This document shows, in pieces, positions 9,801 to 50,201 of a stretch of 64,000 nucleotides of DNA (position 1 is its first letter; every line of letters begins with the position of its first letter). The notes under the pieces were generated by a model. It did no database searches and had not been told where the DNA came from. It worked only from the letters and a program-made list of their open reading frames with translations. The DNA comes from a virus: IMG/VR virus record IMGVR_UViG_3300025418_000694, positions 1 through 64,000 of that record; one strand, given 5' to 3'. Made by a program: the position numbers and the translations under genes.

Positions 9801-11194
9801 ACTGCTGGTGTGGCAGAAGGTGCAGTTCCTGTGTAGTAAGAAAATACCAATGGTGATGTAACAGTTGCTACATATGCGTTACCATTTGGGGCAGTTCCTG
9901 AGGCTACTGTTGAACCAATAACAGCTATTTCATTACCAATATGTAAACCGTGTGGTTGGGTTGAAGGCATTGTTACTGTAACCATATTTGAAGAATAGGC
10001 AAAAGACGCAGGTGTTAAAGCAGCGTCTTTATAAACCGTTCCAAGAGCTACTAGAGTTTTGTTAGTATCAAAAATTGTTGTAGATGCCCAACCTGTTGGC
10101 GTAGAGCCTTTTGCTGAAAAGGTAAATGAGGATTCACTTGGTCGAGTTTCAATTGTATAGTTACCTGGAACTGATGGTGAGAAAGTATCAGCAATGTAGA
10201 TTGGCACACCGATTGCAGGGGCAACACCAGCTGTTACTGTTCCAGAACCAGATGATGCTGTATTTGCTGTAGTTGAGTTAGCAATAGTAAATGTAGTTGT
10301 TGTTGGGGTTGCAAGAATAATTGCAGGCTGTCCAGAAGTTGTATTGTAGTTAGTTGTAAAACCAGTAATTGTTACAAGTTGTCCAACTGTAAAGTTATGG
10401 GCTGCAGAAGTTGTATAGGTAGCAAGAGTTCCGTTACCAATTGCACTTGATGCAGTTGCTGTGGTGGTTGTAAGAGAAACAGTAATTGTCTTAGTTCCAG
10501 CAGCACCAGTTTGAATATCAGATACTGCTAGGGCGTTAAAGTTGAAGTTATATGCAAATGGGCGGTTATTAATAAGACTTAGATTTTCCCACTTAGATAC
10601 TTGTGGTCCATATTCAAAGTCTGTGTCAATAAGCGCCTGTGGGCTAGATGTACGGAACTTACCTACTGGGTCAGTTAGCTCTTCTGATGGTTCAAACTTT
10701 TCAGCAAATTGGTCGATAGTAATCTGCAACTTATCCGTTGCAGCCATGACTCCTGCAGTATTGTAGTTAAGAACAAGTGTTGTGTTTTCTGAAACAGACG
10801 CTAATCCACCTGATACCCATGTGCCAGTAACTGTGCTTGCTACTGTAAATGTGGTTGAGTTTGCAGATGTAATTGTTGCTGAAATGTTAAATGCTGTTGG
10901 AGTAGCACCTGTAATGGTTACAAATTGACCAGGAGAGAAAGTATTAGCTGCTGTGAATGTAACAGCAGAACCTGTTGTAGCAATAGCTGTGATTGGAGCT
11001 GTAAGGGCGTTTTCACCATACGCTGCATAAGAAGTTGCTAGAAGAGAAGCATCAGAAAAGTTATAGATAACCTTATTCTTGGTAACGTTGGTAATAAGTA
11101 CCAAGCGCTCTTGTGGGATGATGCGGGGAATGACAATAGTTTTTGAGGCTGGGGTAAAGACATATCCTGTCTCTAATAGAATCTTTCTTGCCAT
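6839..11194 (-). CDS. Giant Ig-like/tail structural protein (1451 aa)
   Basis: The product begins MARKILLETGYVFTPASKT. It is extremely rich in Thr, Ser, Val, Ala and Gly, with many repeats of the form SVTGTGIPxGTxVxxVSGTTVTLS and ITSANSTTFTVAS, typical of bacterial Ig-like adhesive modules. A central part around residues 540-830 is less repetitive (YFRYQSGKGIQISSG; YMDYSWYGAGAVRWGFRGP) and may be the baseplate-binding core. The C-terminal part has RDLGNAVLGGGTAVSN. It probably forms a tail fibre or baseplate wedge. No catalytic motif seen. Confidence 0.7.
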   Translation of the reverse strand: MARKILLETGYVFTPASKTIVIPRIIPQERLVLITNVTKNKVIYNFSDASLLATSYAAYGENALTAPITAIATTGSAVTFTAANTFSPGQFVTITGATPTAFNISATITSANSTTFTVASTVTGTWVSGGLASVSENTTLVLNYNTAGVMAATDKLQITIDQFAEKFEPSEELTDPVGKFRTSSPQALIDTDFEYGPQVSKWENLSLINNRPFAYNFNFNALAVSDIQTGAAGTKTITVSLTTTTATASSAIGNGTLATYTTSAAHNFTVGQLVTITGFTTNYNTTSGQPAIILATPTTTTFTIANSTTANTASSGSGTVTAGVAPAIGVPIYIADTFSPSVPGNYTIETRPSESSFTFSAKGSTPTGWASTTIFDTNKTLVALGTVYKDAALTPASFAYSSNMVTVTMPSTQPHGLHIGNEIAVIGSTVASGTAPNGNAYVATVTSPLVFSYYTGTAPSATPAVSPTATTATGAVGSTFVTVASATSIVPGMTVTAAGIAAGTFVTYVQGTAIGLSQAVTTALTTTSITFNASIFVRSQAQVKHRAFDGGVFFSTNGTSNNTAQVRQTRRYFRYQSGKGIQISSGTILKPTYGIDSISYSSPYVTVQTKEPHGLQPGYSIAIYGANENGYNGTFPVASVTGLTSFTYVPTTAPTVTTASGNYYASVSNWNGASNRLGLFDQQNGVFFEYDGTTLYAVRRSSIFQTAGRVTVTNGSSTVSQTTTNYPTTFSKQLVPGDYIVLRGQSYRVIDIASDTSLTIQPSYRGTTATNVIVSKTIDTKIPQSAWNIDRVDGTGPSGYNIDLTKMQMFYMDYSWYGAGAVRWGFRGPKGNIVYVHKQANNNQNATAYMRSGNLSGRYESVTQPASTQLTASVGASDTTINVANTTGFYAPTSVSTSATGSSGANTLVVTSTTGIVSGMFATGTNLGAGAVVTAVNASTLTVTLSVNNGGAVSATITFQSYPGTAVIRGTGSSNTWEYINYTGLTSNTLTGVTRGQAGASAVTTTMAVGSNVATVGSTAGLQVGMRAISPYLADGTKIEFISGTTTLILSSSPTVANPTIWFPAMGYTTGTLGTTSGTAVTAGQAFTYSSTNPTAVEQAFPTFGPSISHWGTSVIMDGRFDDDKSLLFTYGQTTPTSLGGTTAVSTTLVQATTGSVVATAGAATGIVPGQQVTGTGIPNGTYVVAISGTTVTLSQATTATLTGNYSFSGATSKALFSIRIAPSVDNGFSAAFGLRELLNKMQLQTKALDISLLNTTTGNVLVQAYLNGTPYNYVGNNATATGSASASTTVTLTGNTGTVAVGMSVQGAGVTAGTTVTAVASQSSITVSNSLTLSSVPLVFLAPGSTSWTNSVRNAANTPNSSLAQIADYAGNSYSVQGGEVTGGFFVSSTGTSDISQVRDLGNAVLGGGTAVSNTGVYPDGPDTLTIVVTNVSTSTASVLGRISWTEAQA

Positions 11195-11197
11195 GCT

Positions 11198-14100
11198 CTA
11201 AAACGCTCCTAACAATAAATCCGTTGGGGAGAACGGATAAGTTGTGGTTACTGTTGGTGTATCTGTTCCCGCCATAATTCTTCCGCTGAACTGTGAACCT
11301 GCTGGAACTGATTCAGAGAAAGCAATATAACCATCATCATCTACCCTAAAACCATCCCAAGGTAGTGGGGAGTCCCACACTACTGAGGAATAATTTACTG
11401 TTTGAACTATACCATTTATAGTGACTAAAAGTCTCAATGGATTGGTAATAGTTTGTTTGGCACCTTGATAGGTGGGTATAAATCGGTTTTCGACTCCATC
11501 AAAGCTATATTGAAGGTTGTCTAATGGGGTGACTTGTGTCGTGCTGGTATCTAATGAGCCATCGCCTTTAACAAATTGGGAAGACGTTCCTCCAGAAGTA
11601 ATATAAGAAGTAGCCGTTAAGTTACCCCTAGAGTCAATTTTTGCTAATGGCGTACCGCTTGAGTTTTGCCATTCAGTAAGGTTGGCAGTTTGGGAAGCAT
11701 TTGCTTGAACCACTATTGGGGTAATAGCGGCAGTTGGGGCAACGACAGAAACAACTGCTGATATTTGAGCGGTTCCGCCAGTACCAGCAACGTTGGTAAA
11801 TCCTGAACCTACTACGGTAAAGGTGGTAGATGTTGCGGCAGTCACTATCCAAGTACCATTGTAAGTACCGCCAGTAACACCAGCGATAGTTACTTTTTGC
11901 CCGACTTGAATTAACGATGTTCCGCCATAGGTAAAGACGGCAACTGTGGCAGAGGTATAAGCAGCGGATGAAATAGCAGTTGTAATAGAACCAACTACTG
12001 CTGTTGTGTTACCAGCAAATAATTGACCCGCTGCGTTAAATCCTGAAATGACTGTACCAGAACCGTTTTGGTTTTGAAGCATATCTCCGCTTTGGGCAGA
12101 ACTTGACCTAAGCGCCATAATTATACTTGTTGAACCGTTTGGACCAAAATTATTTCTTGCACCATAAGGCGCAGTAGTTCCGCCGTAAATTCCATAAAGA
12201 GTTTTTAAGATACCAAACTGGTCAACAGTTAATGCGTAAGAAGTTCCTGCTTGCGTAAAGGAAGCCATATTTGCATTAGAGCCATTTGGTATAGTTGCAG
12301 TTAATGGCACTACTCCAGTAGCGGTAGGGGCTATTGTGTTACCTGCTGTAAAGGTATTCGTTGTAGCCAATTCAGGCACAACGGTTGTATCTACAATCAG
12401 GTTACTTGCTGAAGTAGTAAGCCCTGTGCCAACATTGAGTGCAATTGTTGACACACCATCGTATGTAATTGGGGCTGTTGCTGTTGCTATACCAGTCGTA
12501 CCAATTGTGCCTTGGTTACCTTGTATTCCCTGTGTGCCTTGAAGCCCCTGAAGACCTTGTGTACCTTGGTTTCCTTGAGTACCTTGAATACCTTGTGTAC
12601 CTTGCGGCCCTTGAATACCCTGCGTACCTTGAGTACCTTGTACTTGTATTCCTTGCGTACCTTGAACGCCTTGCGTTCCTTGTAAACCTTGTAATCCCTG
12701 AGTACCTTGAGTACCAGTAGTTCCTTGTGAACCTGTAAATCCTTGTAAACCAATAAGTCCCTGTAGACCTACAAAACCTTGGGTACCAGTAGCGCCTTGA
12801 ATTCCTGTAAGTCCTTGAGAACCAGTTGTACCTTGAGCACCATTAGCTCCATTAGTACCTGCAGTTCCCTGTGTACCTGTAAAACCTTGTAGTCCAGTTG
12901 TTCCTTGGTTGCCTTGAAGACCTTGTAAACCAGTAAGGCCCTGTAAACCATTTGTTCCTTGAGTTCCTTGAATACCTGTAGAACCTGTAATTCCTTGCGC
13001 GCCTGTCGTTCCCTGCGCTCCTGTAGAACCTGTTGTTCCAATTGCGCCCTGAGTTCCAACTGCACCTTGAATTCCTGTAGTGCCTTGGATTCCTTGTGCG
13101 CCCGTAGCTCCTGTTGAGCCTTGTGTTCCTTGTGGACCGATACCACCAGTTTGAGCAAAGGTAATAGCATCTGTACCAATGATAATCCAGCCGTTAGATT
13201 GGCTACCTACTGAGTTTTCAATCCAGTTAGTACTTGATTGCGTTGTACCAGCAACTACATAAAGAAAATCGCCGTACTCGACTTCGCCATTAACAGAGTT
13301 GTTGTAATCTGATGCGCGAGTGAGGATATAGGGAGTTGGACCTGAACCTTGTTGAGTAATTACATAAATACCATTTTGTGTTGTAGTAGTTTGATTCTTA
13401 ACAAGTACGCGGTCATTAGTAGTAAATGAAACACCATCAACTGAACCACGACCATTGCTAGTAGCAGTAAGAGTTGCGCCTACGCCATAACCACCATCAG
13501 CACCTAAAGTACCTGCGGTGTAAGTAGCAGCAAGATTGGCAGTTGTAGCCATACGAGCAGAAGCGTGTGCGTTGTTAGAAGCTAATGGGCCGACTAATCC
13601 CTGAACGCCTTGTGTACCTTGAACGCCAAAAGAGCCTTGTATTCCTGTATTTCCTTGAATACCCTGAGTGCCTGTACCAGTAATTCCTTGAATACCAGTA
13701 GTTCCTTGGGTACCTTGGACGCCTTGCGTTCCCTGATTTCCCTGCAGACCTTGTAGACCTATTAATCCTTGTAAACCTGTTGTTCCTTGATTACCTTGAA
13801 TCCCTTGTAAACCTGTTGTTCCTTGATTACCTTGAATCCCTTGGTTACCTTGAACTCCTTGAGTACCTTGGATACCTTGCGTCCCCTGTAATCCAACAAG
13901 ACCTTGCGTACCAGTCGCACCCTGCATACCTGTAGTGCCTTGTGTACCAGTGCTTCCTTGTAAACCTAAGAATCCTTGAGTACCCTGCGCGCCCTGTATA
14001 CCAGTTGTTCCTTGAGGACCCTGAACTCCTTGTACTCCCTGCAGACCTTGAATACCCTGGGTACCTTGTGGACCTTGAATGCCCTGAGTTCCCTGAGGTC

Positions 14101-15589: not shown

Positions 15590-16678
15590 TTACCAGCTTC
15601 CGTTTAGCGCACCTGAAGAGTTAGTTACAGCTTGGGTAACAAAGGTTTGACCCTTAACGTAAGTAACGGCTACTTCGGTGTTTGCAATCTCTGTTGCTAG
15701 TAGGTCCCAGAATCCACGTACAGGCAGGTACTGAGTGCCATCAACATTAAGCGATAGCTGTACCTTACTGAGTGTTGAAGATGTAGATAGGAGGGTAACT
15801 GTAAAATTAGCGTATACGGAAGGTGCATTTGGATAGGTACGAATCTGCGCAGCCCAGGTAAACAAAGAAGCATCAAATGGGAAATCAAACTCTACAGAGA
15901 AGCTGTTTCCTTGGGTAATAACTAAATCGTAGTTTTGAGCTGTTGAAGGCAATGGGCTACGTCCAGTCAAGTTATTGGTTATGTAAACTCTTTCTGGCTT
16001 ACGGGCATCGTCAACCTCTTGAGTTACATAGACAGGTACGTACTTATTAGTTGTACGTGAAGTACGGATAAGCGTACCCATTTCAATCTTCCATAGACCA
16101 ACGTTAAGCTGGGCACAGAGGGTCTTATATTGCTCCCAACGCTGTTGAATAATAGATGTGAGCTGGCGGTAACGCTCAGAGCGAGGAATATTTACTCCAT
16201 CTGGCGCCTGAATATCGATATCAAAAGCAGAGTCTGTGGCAAGAGCCCATAGAGCCTCAATGGTTGCAAGGATAGCAACTGGATACTCTTCTACAGGAGG
16301 GATACTGGCAATAGTAACTAGAGACCCGTAAGAATCAACGCGGTTATAGGTATGCTGGTTTACAGCATCGTTAATAAAGTTACAGAGTTCAGAGTCTAGG
16401 AAATAACGGTCTTGAAGACCTGTTACTGCAATAGTAGAGCCGCTAACAGGGGCGGTTGCAAAGGTAATAATGCCTGTGTCTTCTTCAACTGTATAGCCGT
16501 AAGGGTACCCAATAGGATTGCTGTTAATTGTTACATAGAGGTTAGCGGTCTCGATAGGCTTAATCCCAGTGGGAAATACGGTGGTAGTTCCGTCACCAGC
16601 AGTAGTAAAACTAAAATTCTTTTGTAAATCGCCTAGTTCTAGACGGACTCTAGAGAGTATGTCAGACAGAACGGCCAC
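15590..16678 (-). CDS. Virion structural protein, connector/neck-like (362 aa)
   Basis: The N-terminal 55 residues (MAVLSDILSRVRLELGDLQ) form an amphipathic helix as in head-tail connector proteins. A beta segment (VFPTGIKPIETANLYVTINS) and a helical region follow (LCNFINDAVNQHTYNRVDS; ALWALATDSAFDIDIQ). The C-terminal 120 residues are beta-rich (LVITQGNSFSVEFDFPFD) and resemble small phage Ig-like domains. It lies between the capsid and fibre genes, which suits a head-tail junction protein. No exact family recognised. Confidence 0.5.
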   Translation of the reverse strand: MAVLSDILSRVRLELGDLQKNFSFTTAGDGTTTVFPTGIKPIETANLYVTINSNPIGYPYGYTVEEDTGIITFATAPVSGSTIAVTGLQDRYFLDSELCNFINDAVNQHTYNRVDSYGSLVTIASIPPVEEYPVAILATIEALWALATDSAFDIDIQAPDGVNIPRSERYRQLTSIIQQRWEQYKTLCAQLNVGLWKIEMGTLIRTSRTTNKYVPVYVTQEVDDARKPERVYITNNLTGRSPLPSTAQNYDLVITQGNSFSVEFDFPFDASLFTWAAQIRTYPNAPSVYANFTVTLLSTSSTLSKVQLSLNVDGTQYLPVRGFWDLLATEIANTEVAVTYVKGQTFVTQAVTNSSGALNGSW

Positions 16679-36952: not shown

Positions 36953-37227
36953 TGGGACATAATTTCGCACAAGAATTGGCTAGCGGGGAGTTAACACTCC
37001 CCCTAGAGGAGGCTATAGCGATTCACCTAAGAAGTAATCACTATCCACCCGTACCGCTTTCTATGGTAACCCCCTGTATAGAAGCCATAGATAAATGCAA
37101 CGAGGGTGATTCTGGCGCGCTAATAGACTTACCCGATCCAATTAAATGGAAAGGCGCAAGCCAAGCACCAGCGTATGCAGTAATAGAAGGTCATCACTTA
37201 GAACCATGGGTTCAATGGGATGACTAA
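36952..37227 (+). CDS. Hypothetical protein (91 aa)
   Basis: ATG overlaps the previous stop (TAATG). Product MGHNFAQELASGELTLPLEE, later DKCNEGDSGALIDLPDPIKW and GHHLEPWVQWDD. Acidic and probably globular. Last gene before two terminators. Confidence 0.6.
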   Translation: MGHNFAQELASGELTLPLEEAIAIHLRSNHYPPVPLSMVTPCIEAIDKCNEGDSGALIDLPDPIKWKGASQAPAYAVIEGHHLEPWVQWDD

Positions 37228-37234
37228 CCCCAGA

Positions 37235-37261
37235 TAGGGAGGCTACCCCCTAGCCTCCCTA
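37235..37261 (+). terminator. Terminator after operon B
   Basis: TAGGGAGGCTA at 37235-37245 pairs perfectly with TAGCCTCCCTA at 37251-37261 around a CCCCC loop, then ATTTG. Confidence 0.8.
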
Positions 37262-37333
37262 ATTTGAAATGCTTGCCAAAAGCAAGGCGTGTTATGCCGC
37301 AGCCATAACCGAGGACTCACTCGAACTGGGATT

Positions 37334-37356
37334 AAAGCCACCAAATCGGTGGCTTT
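37334..37356 (+). terminator. Second hairpin terminator
   Basis: AAAGCCACC at 37334-37342 pairs with GGTGGCTTT at 37348-37356 around AAATC, then ACTATTT. Terminates either read-through from operon B or a small RNA from 37262. Confidence 0.7.
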
Positions 37357-37396
37357 ACTATTTAACTCCCTGACGGCATTGGGTTAGGCATTGACC

Positions 37397-40211: not shown

Positions 40212-41591
40212 ATGACACTAGCAGTATTGGTGGAGACCTTAGAGGGCGAAGCGCGCTCACAGACTCTCCTATTCCCTCACAAGGGAGAAGTGCGGATTTA
40301 TCACCGCCTCTCAACAGGTCAGGCAGGACGTGGACAGACATGGTCTCACCTATCTGATATAGAGGATTTGCCCGACACTCTCCTATCCAAGAAACCCGTA
40401 GCCGTTGTCCTCACCGAGCGCGATACTGCTCTCGTTGATACAGGACTCGTTACCAATATCGGTGCTAAGGCTCTCTATGCCTATGAAAGTGCCGACCCTG
40501 TTACCGCGCCAATCTCACACAGAGATAGCGTTCTAGACCTTAAAACTCGATTCGAGTCAGGAGACAACTCTCTCTCTGATTTGATTACCGATAAACGTCG
40601 TAATCAGGGTGTAATTCTAACCCCGTTGAGCGCGACCCCGAACGTGACCTTTATTAAGCAAAGTGAGCCTATCAAGCAAGAAGTAACAATAGGCGCACAC
40701 GAAAGCACACGTCTCGCCTATGAAAATATGATTACTGTTCCCGACCAAAAGTGGTCACGTGATTATATAAACCGCTACTTTGAGGACGGCAAGTCCGACT
40801 TCGAGATTTATGACTACGCAGATTCTAACGATATAAACGTTCTAATCGAAGGTGGCGCTGGTTCAGGCAAGACCATGAGTGTAATCGCCTATGCCTCTGC
40901 TAGACAGAAGCGTTATTTCAACGTCTCCTCTAATGCTGGTATTGACCCTAGCCAACTATTCGGGCGCTGGATTCCTAGAGAGGACGGACATGGTTATCGC
41001 TGGCAGGACGGCGCAGTCACTCTCCTAGTTCGACATGGCGGAGTTCTACTCCTCAATGAAGTGAACTTCATGCCCGAACGTATTATGACAGTTCTCTATT
41101 CCTTACTAGATGACCGACGTGAGATTCAATTATTGGATAACGGCGGTGAGGTTATTAAGGCTCACAAAGACCTGCTAATCGTGGCAGACATGAACGCTGG
41201 TTATCGTGGCACTCACGAACTATCACAGGCTAACAATGACAGGTGGAAAATTAAACTAGAGTTTCCTTACGATAAGAAAATCGAAAGCAAACTAATCAAG
41301 TCTAAGGCTCTGCTGGAATTGGCTCAAAAGTTACGTGACCGATTCGACCTAGATGAACTCACAACTCCAATCTCGACACGTGGTCTAGTAGCACTACAAA
41401 ATAACGTGACGGGTCTAGGCTTGAACTTCGCAATTACTTCTTACGTCAATGGATTCGACAAAGATGAACGCGTGGCAGTTCGTCAGGTAATCGAAACAAT
41501 GAAGTGGAATATCGCAACCGACTTCGGTGTAAAGGTTGAAGTCGAACCTACAGATTCAATCGTAACCGAGACAGTAAAGGTGGATAACTAA
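40212..41591 (+). CDS. MoxR/CobS-like AAA+ ATPase (459 aa)
   Basis: The first 200 residues form a variable N-terminal part. Walker A is EGGAGSGKT near 213-221 and Walker B is GVLLLNEVNFMPE near 277-289. Sensor-1 is LIVADMNAGYRGTHELSQA, followed by an RWKIKLEFPYD segment. This is the MoxR/CobS type, which partners VWA proteins as chaperone, chelatase or maturation machines. The VWA gene starts 2 nt downstream, so the two are one unit. Cyanophage CobS homologues are a precedent for phage-encoded versions. Confidence 0.85.
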   Translation: MTLAVLVETLEGEARSQTLLFPHKGEVRIYHRLSTGQAGRGQTWSHLSDIEDLPDTLLSKKPVAVVLTERDTALVDTGLVTNIGAKALYAYESADPVTAPISHRDSVLDLKTRFESGDNSLSDLITDKRRNQGVILTPLSATPNVTFIKQSEPIKQEVTIGAHESTRLAYENMITVPDQKWSRDYINRYFEDGKSDFEIYDYADSNDINVLIEGGAGSGKTMSVIAYASARQKRYFNVSSNAGIDPSQLFGRWIPREDGHGYRWQDGAVTLLVRHGGVLLLNEVNFMPERIMTVLYSLLDDRREIQLLDNGGEVIKAHKDLLIVADMNAGYRGTHELSQANNDRWKIKLEFPYDKKIESKLIKSKALLELAQKLRDRFDLDELTTPISTRGLVALQNNVTGLGLNFAITSYVNGFDKDERVAVRQVIETMKWNIATDFGVKVEVEPTDSIVTETVKVDN

Positions 41592-41592
41592 T

Positions 41593-43551
41593 ATGGGTCG
41601 CCGTCGCCGTCGCAATAATGGACTAATCTCTGAATTGGATTCCCTATCCACAGGACGTGGACTCCATGAACGTATCAACGATAACAATGAGTGGGAACTC
41701 TATGATGAGGAAAGCGGTTTAGCAGTAACCCATGCCGAACTAGTCGCAAAATACACAGAGCGCGCTAACCGACTCAATGCGGTGGCACAGGTGTACGAAC
41801 GTGTAGATAGGATTCTCACCAATGAGGATATTACTGTTCGTGTAATCAACGATAAGAATATGGATACCAATGCCCGTTCCAATGGAAAGGATATTGAACT
41901 CAATGCCAATCTAATTGAGGATTTATCTGACGAAAGTATTATGAGCCTTCATGGTCTGAACTATCACGAACTAGCGCACGTGGAGTTCTCTCCCCGTCAG
42001 GGTTCAGACTTAGGAATATACGTTCGCGATAATAAACTGTTTAAGGCAATCGCAATTCTAGAGGAAGGTCGCGCTGAACAATTACTGCTCAAAAAGTATC
42101 CTTCAATTCGACCTTACCTAGAAGCAAGTGTTTATACCTACGTGTTAGCAGACCAGCCTAGTGATTGGGGAACTAAGTTTCATCTAATCACAGGTCGCAC
42201 CTACTTACCACTAGAAATTAGGCAATCTATTCTAGACAAAGCAATCGTTCAATACGGATATGAAATTGTCTCCAACGTTCACTCGATTATCCATGCCTAT
42301 CGTGACTTAGTGTTCCCTGCTGATTTCGATAAGGCTAAAGAACTCGCACACAGACTCGCCAATATACTCGGACATGATGAGGATTCTAATAATTCAGGTT
42401 CAAGTTCTAGTGAAGGTTCAGAGGAGTCTAAGGACTCAAAAGGTATCACAGGTGTAGGCGGTGGGTGCGGTCTGCCTAGTAAGGGCAGACCAGCAAGCGG
42501 AAAGGAGCAGGCTAAGTATCAAAGCCAGCCCTCTAATGATAAATTAGAAAGCCTCAACACAAACAGGTCGCAAAGCGATAGCGGTTCAGGTAGCGAAATT
42601 GAAACTCAATCGGTCAATGATTCAGATTCAGAAATTACTGCCAAAGATGTTGAAGTGGCTCATGCTCTCAATGAGCGCATGAACCAACTAAAGCAGGACT
42701 CTCGCGTTAAGCGCGAAGTCAAGGACACTCGAAATGCGATTCTCGGTTCAGGTGAGGCTAAGGCTGATATTCCAACAGGTGACACTATGGAAATCGCACC
42801 TTCTATGGGAGCAATCTCAATGGCAAAGCGATTCAGCACAGAGTTAGAACGCATAGTGCGAAACAATGACCCTGCTTGGGTAGGTCGCACTAGAAGTGGT
42901 CGCCTGAATATCTCTCGCACCATGAACCCTGATGTCAATGCTATCTCTGAAATGTTCGACCAATGGGATATTGGTAATGAAGCCACCGATATAGAAGCGG
43001 TTATCCTTACCGATAATTCAGGTTCAATGGGCGGTTCAATGAAAGCAGTATGCGAGAACACTTGGATTCTAAAGCGCGCTATCGAAAGCATAGAAGGTTC
43101 AGTAACCGCCTTCTCCTTCGATTCTGATACTGAACTGCTCTACTCTAAAGATGATAAGGCTAAGTCTAGAGTAATGAAGTTCGTGGGTTCACGTGGAAGC
43201 ACTAACCCACTACGCGGAATTATCGAAGCAGACCGCATATTGACCTCATCTAAAAAGTCAATCAAGATTCTATTTATAGTTACTGACGGGGATTGGGAGC
43301 GCCAAGAACAATGCGACGACCTAATCAAGTCTATGAACAATAAGGGATTCCTGACGTGCGTAGTGTTCTTAGGTGATTTCAAGTCCTATCAGAACCTAAT
43401 CGAGCAGTCTGCTAGAGGTGATGACCGCGCTACTAATTACTTAAAGGCAATACGTCACCACGCCAAAGTGTTCCACGCTGTTACCAACACCGCAGATATT
43501 CTCAAAGTGGCAAGTATGCTAGTCAAATCAACTCTAAAGAAGGTGGCTTAG
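41593..43551 (+). CDS. VWA-domain protein with HExxH motif (652 aa)
   Basis: The N-terminal domain has LNYHELAHVEF near residues 123-132, an HExxH signature typical of zinc peptidases. A Ser/Gly-rich acidic linker lies at about 265-370. The C-terminal VWA domain has VILTDNSGSMGGSMKAVC near 472-489, a MIDAS DxSxS, then LFIVTDGDWERQEQCDD. This arrangement matches DUF2201/CobT-like proteins that pair with MoxR ATPases. The pair could act as a protein- or metal-remodelling complex. Which substrate is unknown. Confidence 0.8.
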   Translation: MGRRRRRNNGLISELDSLSTGRGLHERINDNNEWELYDEESGLAVTHAELVAKYTERANRLNAVAQVYERVDRILTNEDITVRVINDKNMDTNARSNGKDIELNANLIEDLSDESIMSLHGLNYHELAHVEFSPRQGSDLGIYVRDNKLFKAIAILEEGRAEQLLLKKYPSIRPYLEASVYTYVLADQPSDWGTKFHLITGRTYLPLEIRQSILDKAIVQYGYEIVSNVHSIIHAYRDLVFPADFDKAKELAHRLANILGHDEDSNNSGSSSSEGSEESKDSKGITGVGGGCGLPSKGRPASGKEQAKYQSQPSNDKLESLNTNRSQSDSGSGSEIETQSVNDSDSEITAKDVEVAHALNERMNQLKQDSRVKREVKDTRNAILGSGEAKADIPTGDTMEIAPSMGAISMAKRFSTELERIVRNNDPAWVGRTRSGRLNISRTMNPDVNAISEMFDQWDIGNEATDIEAVILTDNSGSMGGSMKAVCENTWILKRAIESIEGSVTAFSFDSDTELLYSKDDKAKSRVMKFVGSRGSTNPLRGIIEADRILTSSKKSIKILFIVTDGDWERQEQCDDLIKSMNNKGFLTCVVFLGDFKSYQNLIEQSARGDDRATNYLKAIRHHAKVFHAVTNTADILKVASMLVKSTLKKVA

Positions 43552-44132: not shown

Positions 44133-44438
44133 ATGCCACACCCACTAAGCGGTCTAACGCCCGACGAAAAGCGTAAGTTATTCAAGATGTTCGAGATTAT
44201 GTCTGAACCTAGTGATACTTCACATGAGGACATGATGTACGTCGTGAATAACGTTAGTCCTATGGTCGAGATACTAAAGAAAACTATCAGCAATCGCATG
44301 ATAGATAGCGGTATCAGCGCAGAGGAAACAGACGCTCTATTAAGTACGTTGATAGGAGTATCTAATATGGCTGGCGGTGTTAGTTTCGCCGACTTCGCCC
44401 ACACAGAAAGCATGGCAGAGGATTTATCAGATAACTAG
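44133..44438 (+). CDS. Hypothetical protein (101 aa)
   Basis: Begins MPHPLSGLTPDEKRKLFKMF and ends SMAEDLSDN. Helical, acidic, with VNNVSPMVEILKKTISNRMI. The structured RNA candidate begins within a few bases of its stop. Unknown function. Confidence 0.6.
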   Translation: MPHPLSGLTPDEKRKLFKMFEIMSEPSDTSHEDMMYVVNNVSPMVEILKKTISNRMIDSGISAEETDALLSTLIGVSNMAGGVSFADFAHTESMAEDLSDN

Positions 44439-44443
44439 AGTTG

Positions 44444-44617
44444 GATAGACACTTGGATAAGATAGACCTAATCTAACTACCAACAGACTTCAAGTTAGTC
44501 ACATGAACAGTTTAATTACTTAGTAATAAGACTCCGAGTAAGTTGAGGTATCAGGGTCGCAAAGACGAAAGGACTTGCGAAGGAGTTAGTTCCTAAACGT
44601 TGTACCTAGTGTCTATC
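44444..44617 (+). ncRNA. Candidate structured RNA closed by a 12-bp stem
   Basis: GATAGACACT at 44444-44453 pairs with AGTGTCTATC at 44608-44617, plus GG/CC at 44455-44456 and 44605-44606. Inside, CTAACTACC (44473-44481) pairs with GGAGTTAG (44582-44589) with one bulge, and TCGCAA (44557-44562) with TTGCGA (44575-44580). The ribosome site of the next gene follows at 44635. Could be a riboswitch, a leader RNA or a small RNA. Confidence 0.55.
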
Positions 44618-44647
44618 TACGCAATCTAATCGAAAGAAGGTAAGTAA

Positions 44648-44938
44648 ATGGGAATAGTAAGTCCCGAACTCGCTCACAGATACGAGCGTGAGTTAGTAGG
44701 CTCTACTCTAATTAACGAGTATGGCGACACTATCGTTAAGGCTAAACACCTTAAAGATAATACGTTTCTAGTCATAGCGGTAAGACCCGTAAAGACTAAT
44801 CCGTACCAAGTATCAAAGGTAATCTATATTTCAGAGGACTTCTTAAACCCCTACAACGAAACAGGGGCAGAGACTTTGGAAGAAGCAGAAATTATATTTA
44901 ATGAAAGGATTGAAAGTGGCAAAATACTCAATAGTTAA
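44648..44938 (+). CDS. Hypothetical protein, paralogue of 45095 gene (96 aa)
   Basis: Begins MGIVSPELAHRYERELVGST. The run YERELVG, then VKAKHLKDN, VIAVRPVKTNP and LEEAEIIFNER matches the 105-aa gene two genes on (YEKEMVG, IKSKHLEGS, LAVRKVPAEP, LEEAEEVYEI). First gene after the structured RNA, with AAGAAGG upstream. Unknown function. Confidence 0.65.
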   Translation: MGIVSPELAHRYERELVGSTLINEYGDTIVKAKHLKDNTFLVIAVRPVKTNPYQVSKVIYISEDFLNPYNETGAETLEEAEIIFNERIESGKILNS

Positions 44939-45095
44939 AACTGTTACTTACGATTTGGAAGCCGTAATCTATTCTGATTTATCAGAGGACGAACTAAAGC
45001 AGAGTCTAAAGCATGATGATTCAGATGTTGAGTACGAACAAATAGAGGGTAATGATGTTCAGTTCTATCTAGATTTATTAGAGGACGACGAGTAA
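44916..45095 (+). CDS. Small acidic protein, GTG start (59 aa)
   Basis: Start taken at GTG 44916 because AAAGGA lies 6 nt before it; the earlier in-frame ATG at 44901 forms part of that site. Product AKYSIVKTVTYDLEAVIYSD after Met, then acidic tail. Unknown function. Confidence 0.55.
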   Translation: MAKYSIVKTVTYDLEAVIYSDLSEDELKQSLKHDDSDVEYEQIEGNDVQFYLDLLEDDE

Positions 45096-45412
45096 TGTCT
45101 AATAAACTTACAGACCTGTACGAAAAAGAAATGGTAGGCGCTGAACTTACGAATAAAGCGGTGGTAATCAAATCTAAACACCTAGAGGGCAGTAAGTATA
45201 TTGTCCTTGCCGTTCGTAAAGTTCCAGCAGAACCTCTCTATGATGAGCGAGATGTTGAGAAAACAACTCCTATTTATCACCGCCCATATATTGTATGGCA
45301 GGTGGATAAAAAGACTATGCGACCTATGAGTGGAGAGTATGCTCTGACACTAGAGGAAGCAGAGGAAGTCTATGAAATATATGGGAATAAAAAGAAGTTC
45401 TTAATCGTTTAA
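45095..45412 (+). CDS. Hypothetical protein, paralogue of 44648 gene (105 aa)
   Basis: Begins MSNKLTDLYEKEMVGAELTN. Related to the 96-aa gene by tandem duplication. ATG overlaps the previous stop (TAATG). Its mid-section (EKTTPIYHRPYIVWQVDKKT) is longer. Unknown function. Confidence 0.65.
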   Translation: MSNKLTDLYEKEMVGAELTNKAVVIKSKHLEGSKYIVLAVRKVPAEPLYDERDVEKTTPIYHRPYIVWQVDKKTMRPMSGEYALTLEEAEEVYEIYGNKKKFLIV

Positions 45413-45438
45413 TAACTAATCGAAGGGAGTTGCCTACA

Positions 45439-47006: not shown

Positions 47007-47414
47007 ATTCAGACTTTCTTGCCCGCTCCTGATTTCAAGGAGTGCGCCCGTATTCTTGATTACCGCAGGTTAGGTAAGCAGAGAGTTGAGGCATATCAAA
47101 TACTAAATACCCTACGTGGGGAGAGTCTTGGCTGGCGCAATCATCCTGCCGTAAAGATGTGGGCTGGTTACGAGCCAGCACTTAAACAATACGGGAGAGA
47201 GATGTGCCTAGAGTGGAGAGCGCGTGGGTACAAGGACAATATGCTCGAAAGGTTTGTGTTGGACGCGCCCGTCGTGTTGCCAACATGGTTAGGGGATAGT
47301 AGGCTTCATATATCCCACCAATCAAATCTAATAAGGAAAGACCCCGAATACTACAAAGACAAGTTTCCAAATGTACCCGCAGACCTGCCGTACTTTTGGA
47401 TTACGAAAGGATAA
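47007..47414 (+). CDS. Pyrimidine-dimer DNA glycosylase-like protein, probable AUU start (135 aa)
   Basis: Homologues I recall begin MQTFLP.PDF. Here ATT at 47007 begins (M)QTFLPAPDFKECARILDYRR, 7 nt after AAGGAG, whereas the nearest ordinary start (TTG 47019) is 19 nt from it. Matching features are RRLGKQRVEAYQIL near 18, WRNHPAVKMWAGYEPALKQY near 40 and CLEWRARGYKDNMLE. These proteins repair UV-type lesions or belong to a related small enzyme family. Confidence 0.65.
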   Translation: MQTFLPAPDFKECARILDYRRLGKQRVEAYQILNTLRGESLGWRNHPAVKMWAGYEPALKQYGREMCLEWRARGYKDNMLERFVLDAPVVLPTWLGDSRLHISHQSNLIRKDPEYYKDKFPNVPADLPYFWITKG

Positions 47415-47836: not shown

Positions 47837-48002
47837 TCCCAATTACGTTACAGTAGAGGAGTTTACTCAAAGATACGCCAATGCTCTTGGCGGTTATCTA
47901 GCAGGGTCTTTTCCTAATGGAGAGACTCACGTAGTAGATTTAATGGTAAGCGCTTCCTGTTTTGCTGAAGCGTCGTTCTATTTGTTTGATAACTTCTTTT
48001 AG
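47826..48002 (+). CDS. Small protein, TTG start (58 aa)
   Basis: TTG at 47826 has GGAG 6 nt upstream. Product ESNPNYVTVEEFTQRYANAL after Met, later HVVDLMVSASCFAEASFYLF. Earlier in-frame ATGs lie inside the acidic gene. Last gene of the plus block. Start uncertain. Confidence 0.5.
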   Translation: MESNPNYVTVEEFTQRYANALGGYLAGSFPNGETHVVDLMVSASCFAEASFYLFDNFF

Positions 48003-48129
48003 TAGAAACCACAGAAGGGCGTTAAAGCGCTTTCCTGCCTTTCCACGCTAAGGGCGGTCATGACCTTGTAATTGTTTTTTATCATATTTTGGGCAATTAC
48101 AGGCGAGCCGTACCTGCGCCTTATGTGAG

Positions 48130-48158
48130 AAACCCCCCGATTCGTTCACGGGGGGTTT
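48130..48158. terminator. Bidirectional terminator between plus block and nrdJ
   Basis: AAACCCCCCG at 48130-48139 pairs with CGGGGGGTTT at 48149-48158. T-rich on the plus side and A/T-rich on the other. It serves the converging transcripts. Confidence 0.85.
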
Positions 48159-48164
48159 TACTAT

Positions 48165-50201
48165 TTACTGATTGTCTTTAATCAGTTTAACTTCACACGC
48201 GTCTGTCGTACAGTAAGCCTCTCCAACTGCGTCATAAGCCATGCCAGCGTACACGCCAGCAAAGTCTATTGGAAAGAGAGTCATACGATAATTCTCATAA
48301 TCATCTTCAGTAATTTGAGTGTAAGGCATTTGGTTATAGACCATGTTTCCTGAAGGTAAGAAAGAGATAGTCTTTAATTGACCGTCATACAAATGTAGAA
48401 CAGTTCCAACATCTTTAGATTCCGACTCTGGATTAAAAGAGACAGTTACAGAGACAGAATTGTCACTCCAATAACGTTGAGCTGTGGCAGCTAGAGCTAC
48501 CTTTTCATAGATAGAGACATCTTTCTCAGAGCGTTTAGCATTAGATTTGACTGGAAAGTAGACTACAGAGGTAGTATCAGGAGATTCCATAGCAGGTTCT
48601 ACTTTATATTGAGCCATCTTAAAGAGAGGAAGCATTGGATCATTGTTTCCAAAGCGGATGGCACGTAGGAAGTATTCTCCACCAACAGACCAATGAACTC
48701 CTGGACTCTCACCTGCCAAGATAGAGACAGTTCCCGAAGGCTTTACAGTTGTAGTCTTAATTGACTCACGGATACCAAGCCACTCTGAATAGCCCTTGTC
48801 ATAACTTTGGATAGTGCCGTAGCCCTCATCCATCCATTGACGCAAGGCTGGTAGCCCTTTGTTATCTGCGAAGTTAGCCACACCTGACATGGAAGTTCCA
48901 ATACGGCGATTGCGTTGCATGATTGCGTTAGTCTCTTCCCAGTGAGTAGGCAGGAGAGTGACTGTCTTGGCATAGAGATAGGCAAACTTAAGAGTTCGCT
49001 TAAAGTCATCTAAAGAGTCATGGCGGTTGAGATAAGTCTCAACGAGCGTACAACACTCATAGGATTCAAGAGACTGTTCGGCACATGGGTTATATCCAGA
49101 AGCGCGCCAGTCTTTATTGTTGATTGGGTCAGCCAAGCGACCATACTTACGAGTGACATCCATCCAGATAACCCCAGGCTCACCATTGAGGGCAATGCCA
49201 TCAATAATAGAATCCAAGTTATCGCCAACATTTACCTCTACGGAGTTGTTAGACATCCAAGCCCAGCCAGGCTTATCAGCATCGTAGGAGTTTCTTTTTG
49301 GGAATACTTTAGGGTTCTTTAGATTTAAGAAGGTTTGATCATCCAGTCTACCCATTAGAAGCTCAGCTGAGCGGCGGACGTTACCAGAGACCACGCATAC
49401 TCCGATTAGGTTACCCAAATCAGCAATGTCTACTCTAGAAAGCTTCTCTCCAGCCTTATTCTTGAATATAGAACGGATGTGCTTGTGTAATCTTTCAAGA
49501 GGCTCTGGGCCTGCAGCTGTGCCGCCAAATGTTTTGATTGGAACGCCTGCTGGACGTACTAAACTGTAATCAAACTTATACTTAGGCTGGTCTGGCTTTA
49601 GATACGAGTTGATTAGCAAAGCAACAGACTCAACCCATCCCTCACGGGTATCAGCTACCTGGTATACCGCCTCCTCATCAGTTGGCTGGTAAATAGTAAA
49701 GTCTTTATCAGCACCCTTGTCATCAAAGCCAACACCCACACCTAGCATTGAGGCTTCCATTAGGAAGGCAAATGGCTTGGCTGGATCGTTCTTTGTCATA
49801 GACGCAGTTGATACAAAAGAACAGTTTTGGAGAGCTGCTGAATTGCGCTGCTCATTTACAAGGGGAGTTCCCATTACCCATAGACCGCGTCCTGGTGGAG
49901 TCCACTTTAGAGTAAACAAGCGGTCAAAGGCTTCTTTAGCAGAAGCTTGAGCTTTAGAATCATTCCAAGGAAGACGGTTGGTTTTGCAATGGTCTTTCTG
50001 TAGAGAATACATACCGTTGATGACTCTCTCACAGACATCTACCCAAGTCTCTTTTGTGCCGTCCTCTTTAAGTCTAGAGTAGGTTCTAAGGAAGGTAATC
50101 TCACCGACTGAGTTTCCAGCGGCATCTTGATAGCCCCAAGGGACTTTCTTAGACCGATAACCTGAGACGAATTCCTCTGCTAGACGAAAGGACAATGCCA
50201 T
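48165..50201 (-). CDS. nrdJ: Class II (B12-dependent) ribonucleoside-triphosphate reductase (678 aa)
   Basis: Converts ribonucleotides to deoxyribonucleotides using adenosylcobalamin. ALQNCSFVSTASM near residue 126 carries the first redox Cys. GYNPCAEQSLESYECCTLVE near 360 carries the second redox Cys, catalytic NPCxE and the radical Cys. TVKPSGTVSILAGESPGVHW near 486 is the nucleotide-binding loop. The C-terminal YCTTDACEVK has the CxxxxC that receives reducing electrons. The single-chain Lactobacillus leichmannii-like form is common in actinophages. It needs oxygen-independent B12 supply from the host. Confidence 0.9.
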   Translation of the reverse strand: MALSFRLAEEFVSGYRSKKVPWGYQDAAGNSVGEITFLRTYSRLKEDGTKETWVDVCERVINGMYSLQKDHCKTNRLPWNDSKAQASAKEAFDRLFTLKWTPPGRGLWVMGTPLVNEQRNSAALQNCSFVSTASMTKNDPAKPFAFLMEASMLGVGVGFDDKGADKDFTIYQPTDEEAVYQVADTREGWVESVALLINSYLKPDQPKYKFDYSLVRPAGVPIKTFGGTAAGPEPLERLHKHIRSIFKNKAGEKLSRVDIADLGNLIGVCVVSGNVRRSAELLMGRLDDQTFLNLKNPKVFPKRNSYDADKPGWAWMSNNSVEVNVGDNLDSIIDGIALNGEPGVIWMDVTRKYGRLADPINNKDWRASGYNPCAEQSLESYECCTLVETYLNRHDSLDDFKRTLKFAYLYAKTVTLLPTHWEETNAIMQRNRRIGTSMSGVANFADNKGLPALRQWMDEGYGTIQSYDKGYSEWLGIRESIKTTTVKPSGTVSILAGESPGVHWSVGGEYFLRAIRFGNNDPMLPLFKMAQYKVEPAMESPDTTSVVYFPVKSNAKRSEKDVSIYEKVALAATAQRYWSDNSVSVTVSFNPESESKDVGTVLHLYDGQLKTISFLPSGNMVYNQMPYTQITEDDYENYRMTLFPIDFAGVYAGMAYDAVGEAYCTTDACEVKLIKDNQ

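Follow-up and report, generated by a model that had tools for sequence, protein, structure and literature searches.

The 178-nt segment at positions 44442..44619 (+ strand) of the window, by which we mean the whole 64,000-nt stretch of viral DNA analyzed here (part of a virus record of 95,817 bases), is very probably a genuine conserved RNA. It belongs to an RNA family that is absent from Rfam, hereafter F2, of which we identified six copies in three phages: one in the window, two in locus L172, and three in locus L214. Neither the window element nor those of L172 and L214 reached the gathering score of any Rfam 15 family, in agreement with the preliminary description of this DNA, which had matched the element to no known RNA family. 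What was initially a fold proposed for a single sequence has thus become a small, covariation-supported RNA family of uncultured phages, standing outside Rfam. As a whole statement, a conserved RNA of a new family that acts as a stand-alone molecule and whose constant motif is the site of a partner is our best explanation, and one that we consider narrowly probable.

The F2 element and its operon

The F2 element occupies the coding strand of a co-directional operon, with moxR/vwa genes on one side and the ribonucleotide reductase on the other. A putative AAA/MoxR-like gene (40212-41591) precedes a vWA gene (41593-43551), followed by small genes and, immediately before the gap, by a 101-aa gene (44133-44438, +) with no assigned function. 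Downstream of the gap are a 96-aa gene (44648-44938, +; no family match), a 64-aa gene, a 105-aa gene (45095-45412, +), a 163-aa gene (g163, starting at 45430), a 131-aa gene (g131, starting at 47019), and, in the opposite orientation, a putative ribonucleotide reductase-like gene (48165-50201); the names of the MoxR-like and reductase-like genes are our own reading of the sequence. The closest annotated relatives of the vWA-domain protein are found in Gordonia and Brevibacterium phages, at 24-34% identity. As the preliminary description had proposed, the 96-aa and 105-aa proteins are paralogous (32% identical, BLASTP E-value 2e-11). No relatives of this pair were found in 40 related records or in scans of IMG/VR, phage, and GTDB genomes; an AlphaFold model (pLDDT 75.6) predicts a helix-sheet-helix fold, for which a fold search returned no telling match, only weak ones to uncharacterised small phage proteins. 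The gap itself (44439-44647) is crossed by no ORF of at least 20 aa and contains no predicted terminator. The ribosome site announced near 44635 is indeed present, as AAGAAGG at 44634-44640, ahead of the gene start at 44648. ARAGORN detected no tRNA or tmRNA gene in the window, and a tRNA or tmRNA identity of the element was rejected accordingly.

The structure was found to be close to the one first proposed. The claimed 12-bp closing stem with one mismatch corresponds to arms 44444-44456 and 44605-44617, in which 12 of the 13 positions pair. Extended outward, this helix (P1) is formed by the 5' arm UGGAUAGACACU (44442..44453, +) and the 3' arm AGUGUCUAUCUA (44608..44619, +), with a mean pair probability of 0.96 and with covariation in six copies; in the window, one T-T mismatch lies beside a motif at its inner end. 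The 5' side of this motif, GGAUAA (44455..44460, +), holds a core GAU (44456-44458), and its 3' side, UUGUACC (44600..44606, +), a core GUAC (44602-44605), both cores being invariant in the six copies; the bulged A of the motif is 44604 and its U-G wobble 44458/44602. Further inside, folding predicts a helix ACUUCAA/UUGAGGU with an apical hairpin AUUAC/GUAAU (44487..44549, +; arms 44487-44497/44539-44549, 7 bp, a mismatch, and 3 bp, p 0.98) and a hairpin UCGCAA/UUGCGA (44557..44580, +; 6 bp, arms 44557-44562/44575-44580, p 0.72), much like the second helix and 6-bp hairpin of the preliminary description. Because the interior cannot be aligned across copies, these inner helices are single-sequence predictions.

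Folding energy by itself is weak evidence for F2. Within the 174-nt boundaries first proposed, the fold has a z-score of -2.6, equalled in 11 of 1000 shuffles; the opposite strand gives -1.3, and the whole 209-nt gap -1.8, equalled in 49 of 1000 shuffles. Perfect 10-bp inverted repeats with arms 60-300 nt apart number 11 in the window, against 13.5 expected from shuffles, and 8 of 2000 shuffles of the F2 gap produce a 12-pair arm with one mismatch and a loop of at least 100 nt. The commonness of such repeats and the modest whole-gap z-score show that the pairings had been overstated as too long to expect by chance, and they count in favour of chance complementarity in a non-functional gap. The decisive evidence against chance is comparative.

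Six copies in three phages

Direct searches were uniformly negative: blastn with the F2 element found no homologue in phages and none that we accepted in the 40 related records (the best match, in L085, was rejected as it appears to be coding), an exact-stem pattern found no match in IMG/VR, and a one-sequence covariance model (R1) found none in the relatives. In hindsight, these searches failed because only the P1 pairing and a short motif are kept. We therefore rely on relatives gathered via neighbour genes, using g163, the ribonucleotide reductase, and a vWA profile. L172 and L214 carry the same operon, with vwa genes whose products are 48-49% identical to that of the window, and in both a non-coding gap follows a 204-aa gene (MGLDMYLYAEK...), between the vWA gene and g131 or the neighbours of g131. 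This matching gap contains tandem closed-stem elements, two in L172 (10138-10270 and 10286-10398) and three in L214 (about 9882-10040, about 10050-10204, and, shorter than these, about 10210-10290). No F2 elements were found in the other relatives examined.

All six copies share, in register, a 5'-GAU directly inside P1 and a GUAC-3' directly before the P1 3' arm. The two strands pair as G-C, a bulged, extrahelical A, A-U, and a U-G wobble, the last being U-G in 6/6 copies; two further pairs inside the motif covary (UG/CA, UA/UA, and AG/CU, with AA/UU in the window). P1 spans about 8-14 bp and differs in sequence in each copy while its pairing is kept, the interior from GAU to GUAC measures 53-150 nt and varies in both length and sequence, and the elements as a whole range from about 80 to 178 nt. 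Since U-G would read as an A-C mismatch on the complement, it is the RNA of the + strand that forms these pairs.

P1 of the window had been set in the preliminary description, before the motif was known. The word pattern of the motif was widened after the window had been viewed, for which reason the shuffle and descriptor tests use only the core common to the other copies. With this core, shuffling the window interior 200,000 times placed the motif in register on 3 occasions, and on none when the two extra pairs were included. A generalised descriptor, run on both strands of 3.58 Mb of fetched sequence, found at least 10 pairs in exactly the six F2 copies, all in the same operon gap; its chance rate is about 1 match per Mb of shuffled sequence, so that position carries much of the weight of the argument. 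A scan of IMG/VR for the literal motif words returned 44 stretches, among which an unbroken in-register run of at least 8 pairs occurred only in the L214 contig, the other matches reaching at most 6 pairs. The combination of P1 and GAU/GUAC can be used as a descriptor to seek further members.

Covariation was assessed on the element ends. MAFFT, applied to whole elements, left these ends unaligned, and they were therefore joined by hand with a spacer, so that the alignment consists of the two joined ends only, in a register set by hand. In this six-copy alignment, 96.9% of the cells pair. For 13 of the 16 pairs, one or more copies show changes on both sides, and the three remaining, invariant pairs make up the motif core. 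Shuffles gave a covariation score of 0.29, and 0/500 of them reached the 0.86 of the actual alignment, a control that ignores the kinship of the copies; sliding the partner by 1-3 columns, which allows for kinship, lowers pairing to 32-48%. Omitting the third L214 copy gave the same outcome (11/16 pairs). Free minimum-energy folding of both L172 copies and of the first two L214 copies (L172a, L172b, L214a, and L214b) yields P1 and the motif pairs unprompted; for the window element, imposing this structure costs 0.3 kcal/mol relative to the free fold. Compensatory changes in P1, whose absence had been named, together with that of a transcript, as what would speak against a structured RNA, are thus present across six copies from three phages, and the structured RNA is supported. 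Together with the rarity of the in-register motif, this covariation makes chance complementarity a highly improbable account of the gap.

The same data bear on the possibility that the repeat acts as DNA, as a MITE, an integron attC-like site, or another inverted repeat. Its inverted-repeat ends do flank a non-coding module, and this module is missing from L003, in which a relative of the 101-aa gene (25% identical) adjoins a g163-like gene with a 2-nt gap, so that the entire block formed by the RNA and the 96-, 64-, and 105-aa genes is absent there. However, the arms of MITEs and attC sites keep their sequence for a recombinase, whereas F2 arms differ in all copies and only their pairing is kept, on which ground MITE and attC were rejected. 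In addition, the U-G wobbles can pair only in the + strand, the element is single-copy in its own genome, and no target-site duplication was seen at its ends. A DNA-level element of any of these kinds is therefore extremely improbable.

The locus nearest to the window by its ribonucleotide reductase gene (L092, 85% identical) also has a closed-stem RNA at the matching operon gap (12611-12757, -), 147 nt long, with a 14-bp closing helix and a fold z-score of -3.2 to -3.5. Its leader, AACTAAATAGA, is identical to that of L172, and the GAU/GUAC motif is absent from it. This calls for caution: loss of the motif may be possible, or else different RNAs are drawn to this position.

Mode of action of F2

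The preliminary description had suggested a riboswitch or leader RNA for the paralogous gene pair, or else a stand-alone RNA. The first part is not supported, as F2 elements of the relatives occur in two or three tandem copies and precede genes unrelated to each other and to the one in the window: in L172 a zinc-ribbon-like gene of 48 aa, in L214 a basic one of 41 aa; the upstream gene likewise differs between phages. A riboswitch of the gene pair was rejected because its neighbours change in this way, and the second part, a stand-alone RNA, fits unrelated neighbours and tandem copies better. A more general cis-acting intercistronic element (riboswitch, attenuator, or protein-bound leader) setting the translation of whichever gene comes next would still account for the position of the last copy, which ends just ahead of the next Shine-Dalgarno in the window, L172, and L214, and for the tandem copies themselves, which would be comparable to tandem riboswitches. 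We nevertheless regard it as unlikely, given that the downstream genes are unrelated, that in the predicted window structure the ribosome site is largely free and the gap lacks a terminator, and that there is no conserved core of the size of a ligand pocket, the interior not being alignable.

An element for mRNA processing or stability, in which a long helix is cut by RNase III or shields the mRNA and so divides the operon into segments, would explain a long intergenic P1 that is indifferent to the identity of its neighbours and to the sequence of its interior. For such a role, however, the helix alone would suffice, whereas the invariant bulged A and U-G, set in a helix that covaries, suggest specific recognition; the 53-150-nt interior and the tandem copies would also be left unexplained. 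This explanation seems to us improbable, more so than cis-acting control.

We tentatively prefer a stand-alone mode for the F2 RNA, to which we assign a little less than an even chance. In such a mode, F2 would be transcribed with the operon, P1 would close the module and allow it to fold independently, and the module would either survive within the operon transcript or be released from it by cleavage as a stand-alone RNA. One common partner, a protein or nuclease, may then have its site at the constant GAU/GUAC motif, and each copy may carry its own content in the variable interior. On a more speculative note, F2 could be a modular RNA class, made of a constant motif (bulged A and U-G), a helix of free sequence, and a hypervariable interior, repeated in tandem as an array of cassettes, each an RNA serving as decoy or antisense against changing targets of the host or of rival phages, for example in counter-defence; we give this scenario a low probability.

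Several phage RNAs invite comparison. The packaging RNA of phi29 is about 174 nt long, has paired ends, carries a bulge in its end helix, and belongs to small phi29-like podoviruses, whereas the F2 element comes from a record of 95.8 kb and has no Rfam match. RNAs C and D of T4 are small stable phage RNAs whose function is not known, located within a tRNA cluster, and F2 can be likened to them by this general description alone. GOLLD and ROOL are, like F2, phage-encoded structured non-coding RNAs without known function (PMC12286853). GOLLD is often >800 nt, and both often lie near tRNA islands (PMC12286853); both are in Rfam, whereas F2 is smaller and without an Rfam match, in a window without a tRNA gene. 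F2 also resembles candidate RNAs of bacteria and metagenomes obtained by comparative genomics (e.g., PMC2864571; PMC8040213) in being intergenic and in showing helix covariation alongside conserved internal nucleotides; in contrast to these, F2 elements fall below every Rfam family threshold.

A second RNA family and other elements

The window contains a second RNA family, F1, which is better supported than F2. Its covariance model (R2) was built from the closed-stem RNAs of L122 (14126-14283, -), L152 (15241-15398, -), L140 (13149-13302, -), L159 (14738-14891, -), L136 (11056-11211, -), and L116 (15023-15159, -), and also matches L138 (14005-14153, -), L214 (as L298, 981-1099, -), L166 (1768-1933, -), L183 (3256-3363, +), and the window at 48002-48130 (+; E-value 4e-4). 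F1 was rejected as the family of the 44442-44619 element, which the model does not match. Members are about 110-165 nt long and have in common the words GGCGUUAA, GGCGGUCAnGAC, and CGAGCCGUAnCUGCGCC; two-sided changes were found in 25 of 38 pairs (0/500 shuffles), in a model-fitted alignment that leans to its own structure. No Rfam family matched F1 near threshold. In the window, a strong terminator hairpin directly follows F1, at the operon end. The presence of F2 and F1 in one window suggests that the operons of this phage lineage hold several unrecognised structured RNAs.

Other elements were observed along the way. In L138, F1 is directly followed by a closed-stem element (13867-14009, -) with a 16-pair arm containing one mismatch and a fold z-score of -4.8. 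L148 has a closed-stem RNA of about 166 nt (15900-16065, -) upstream of a moxR-like gene, and similar conserved 5' and/or 3' ends occur in L222, L224, L225, L226, L227, L229, L233, and L242, so that a third RNA family is possible. A dispersed motif, GTTTGTGTTG, has 12 exact copies in the window, as the pairs 38603-38612/38674-38683 and 39758-39767/39853-39862 plus single copies, and 2-12 copies per locus in many relatives (e.g., L003, L004, L020, L065, L073, and L081). Single copies in L003, L007, and L027 stand just after a hairpin-like sequence and are followed by a CCCACCCACC-like sequence; in inverted pairs of other loci the outer 10 bp are constant, and the inner stem changes yet stays paired. 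These elements, which fold at z-scores of -6 to -8 in the window, are perhaps phage promoters/terminators or RNA elements. Finally, in the half of the window that was scanned, the fold signal ranking second in strength lies at 37222-37395 (+; z-score -7.7, 25 shuffles) and probably corresponds to terminator hairpins.
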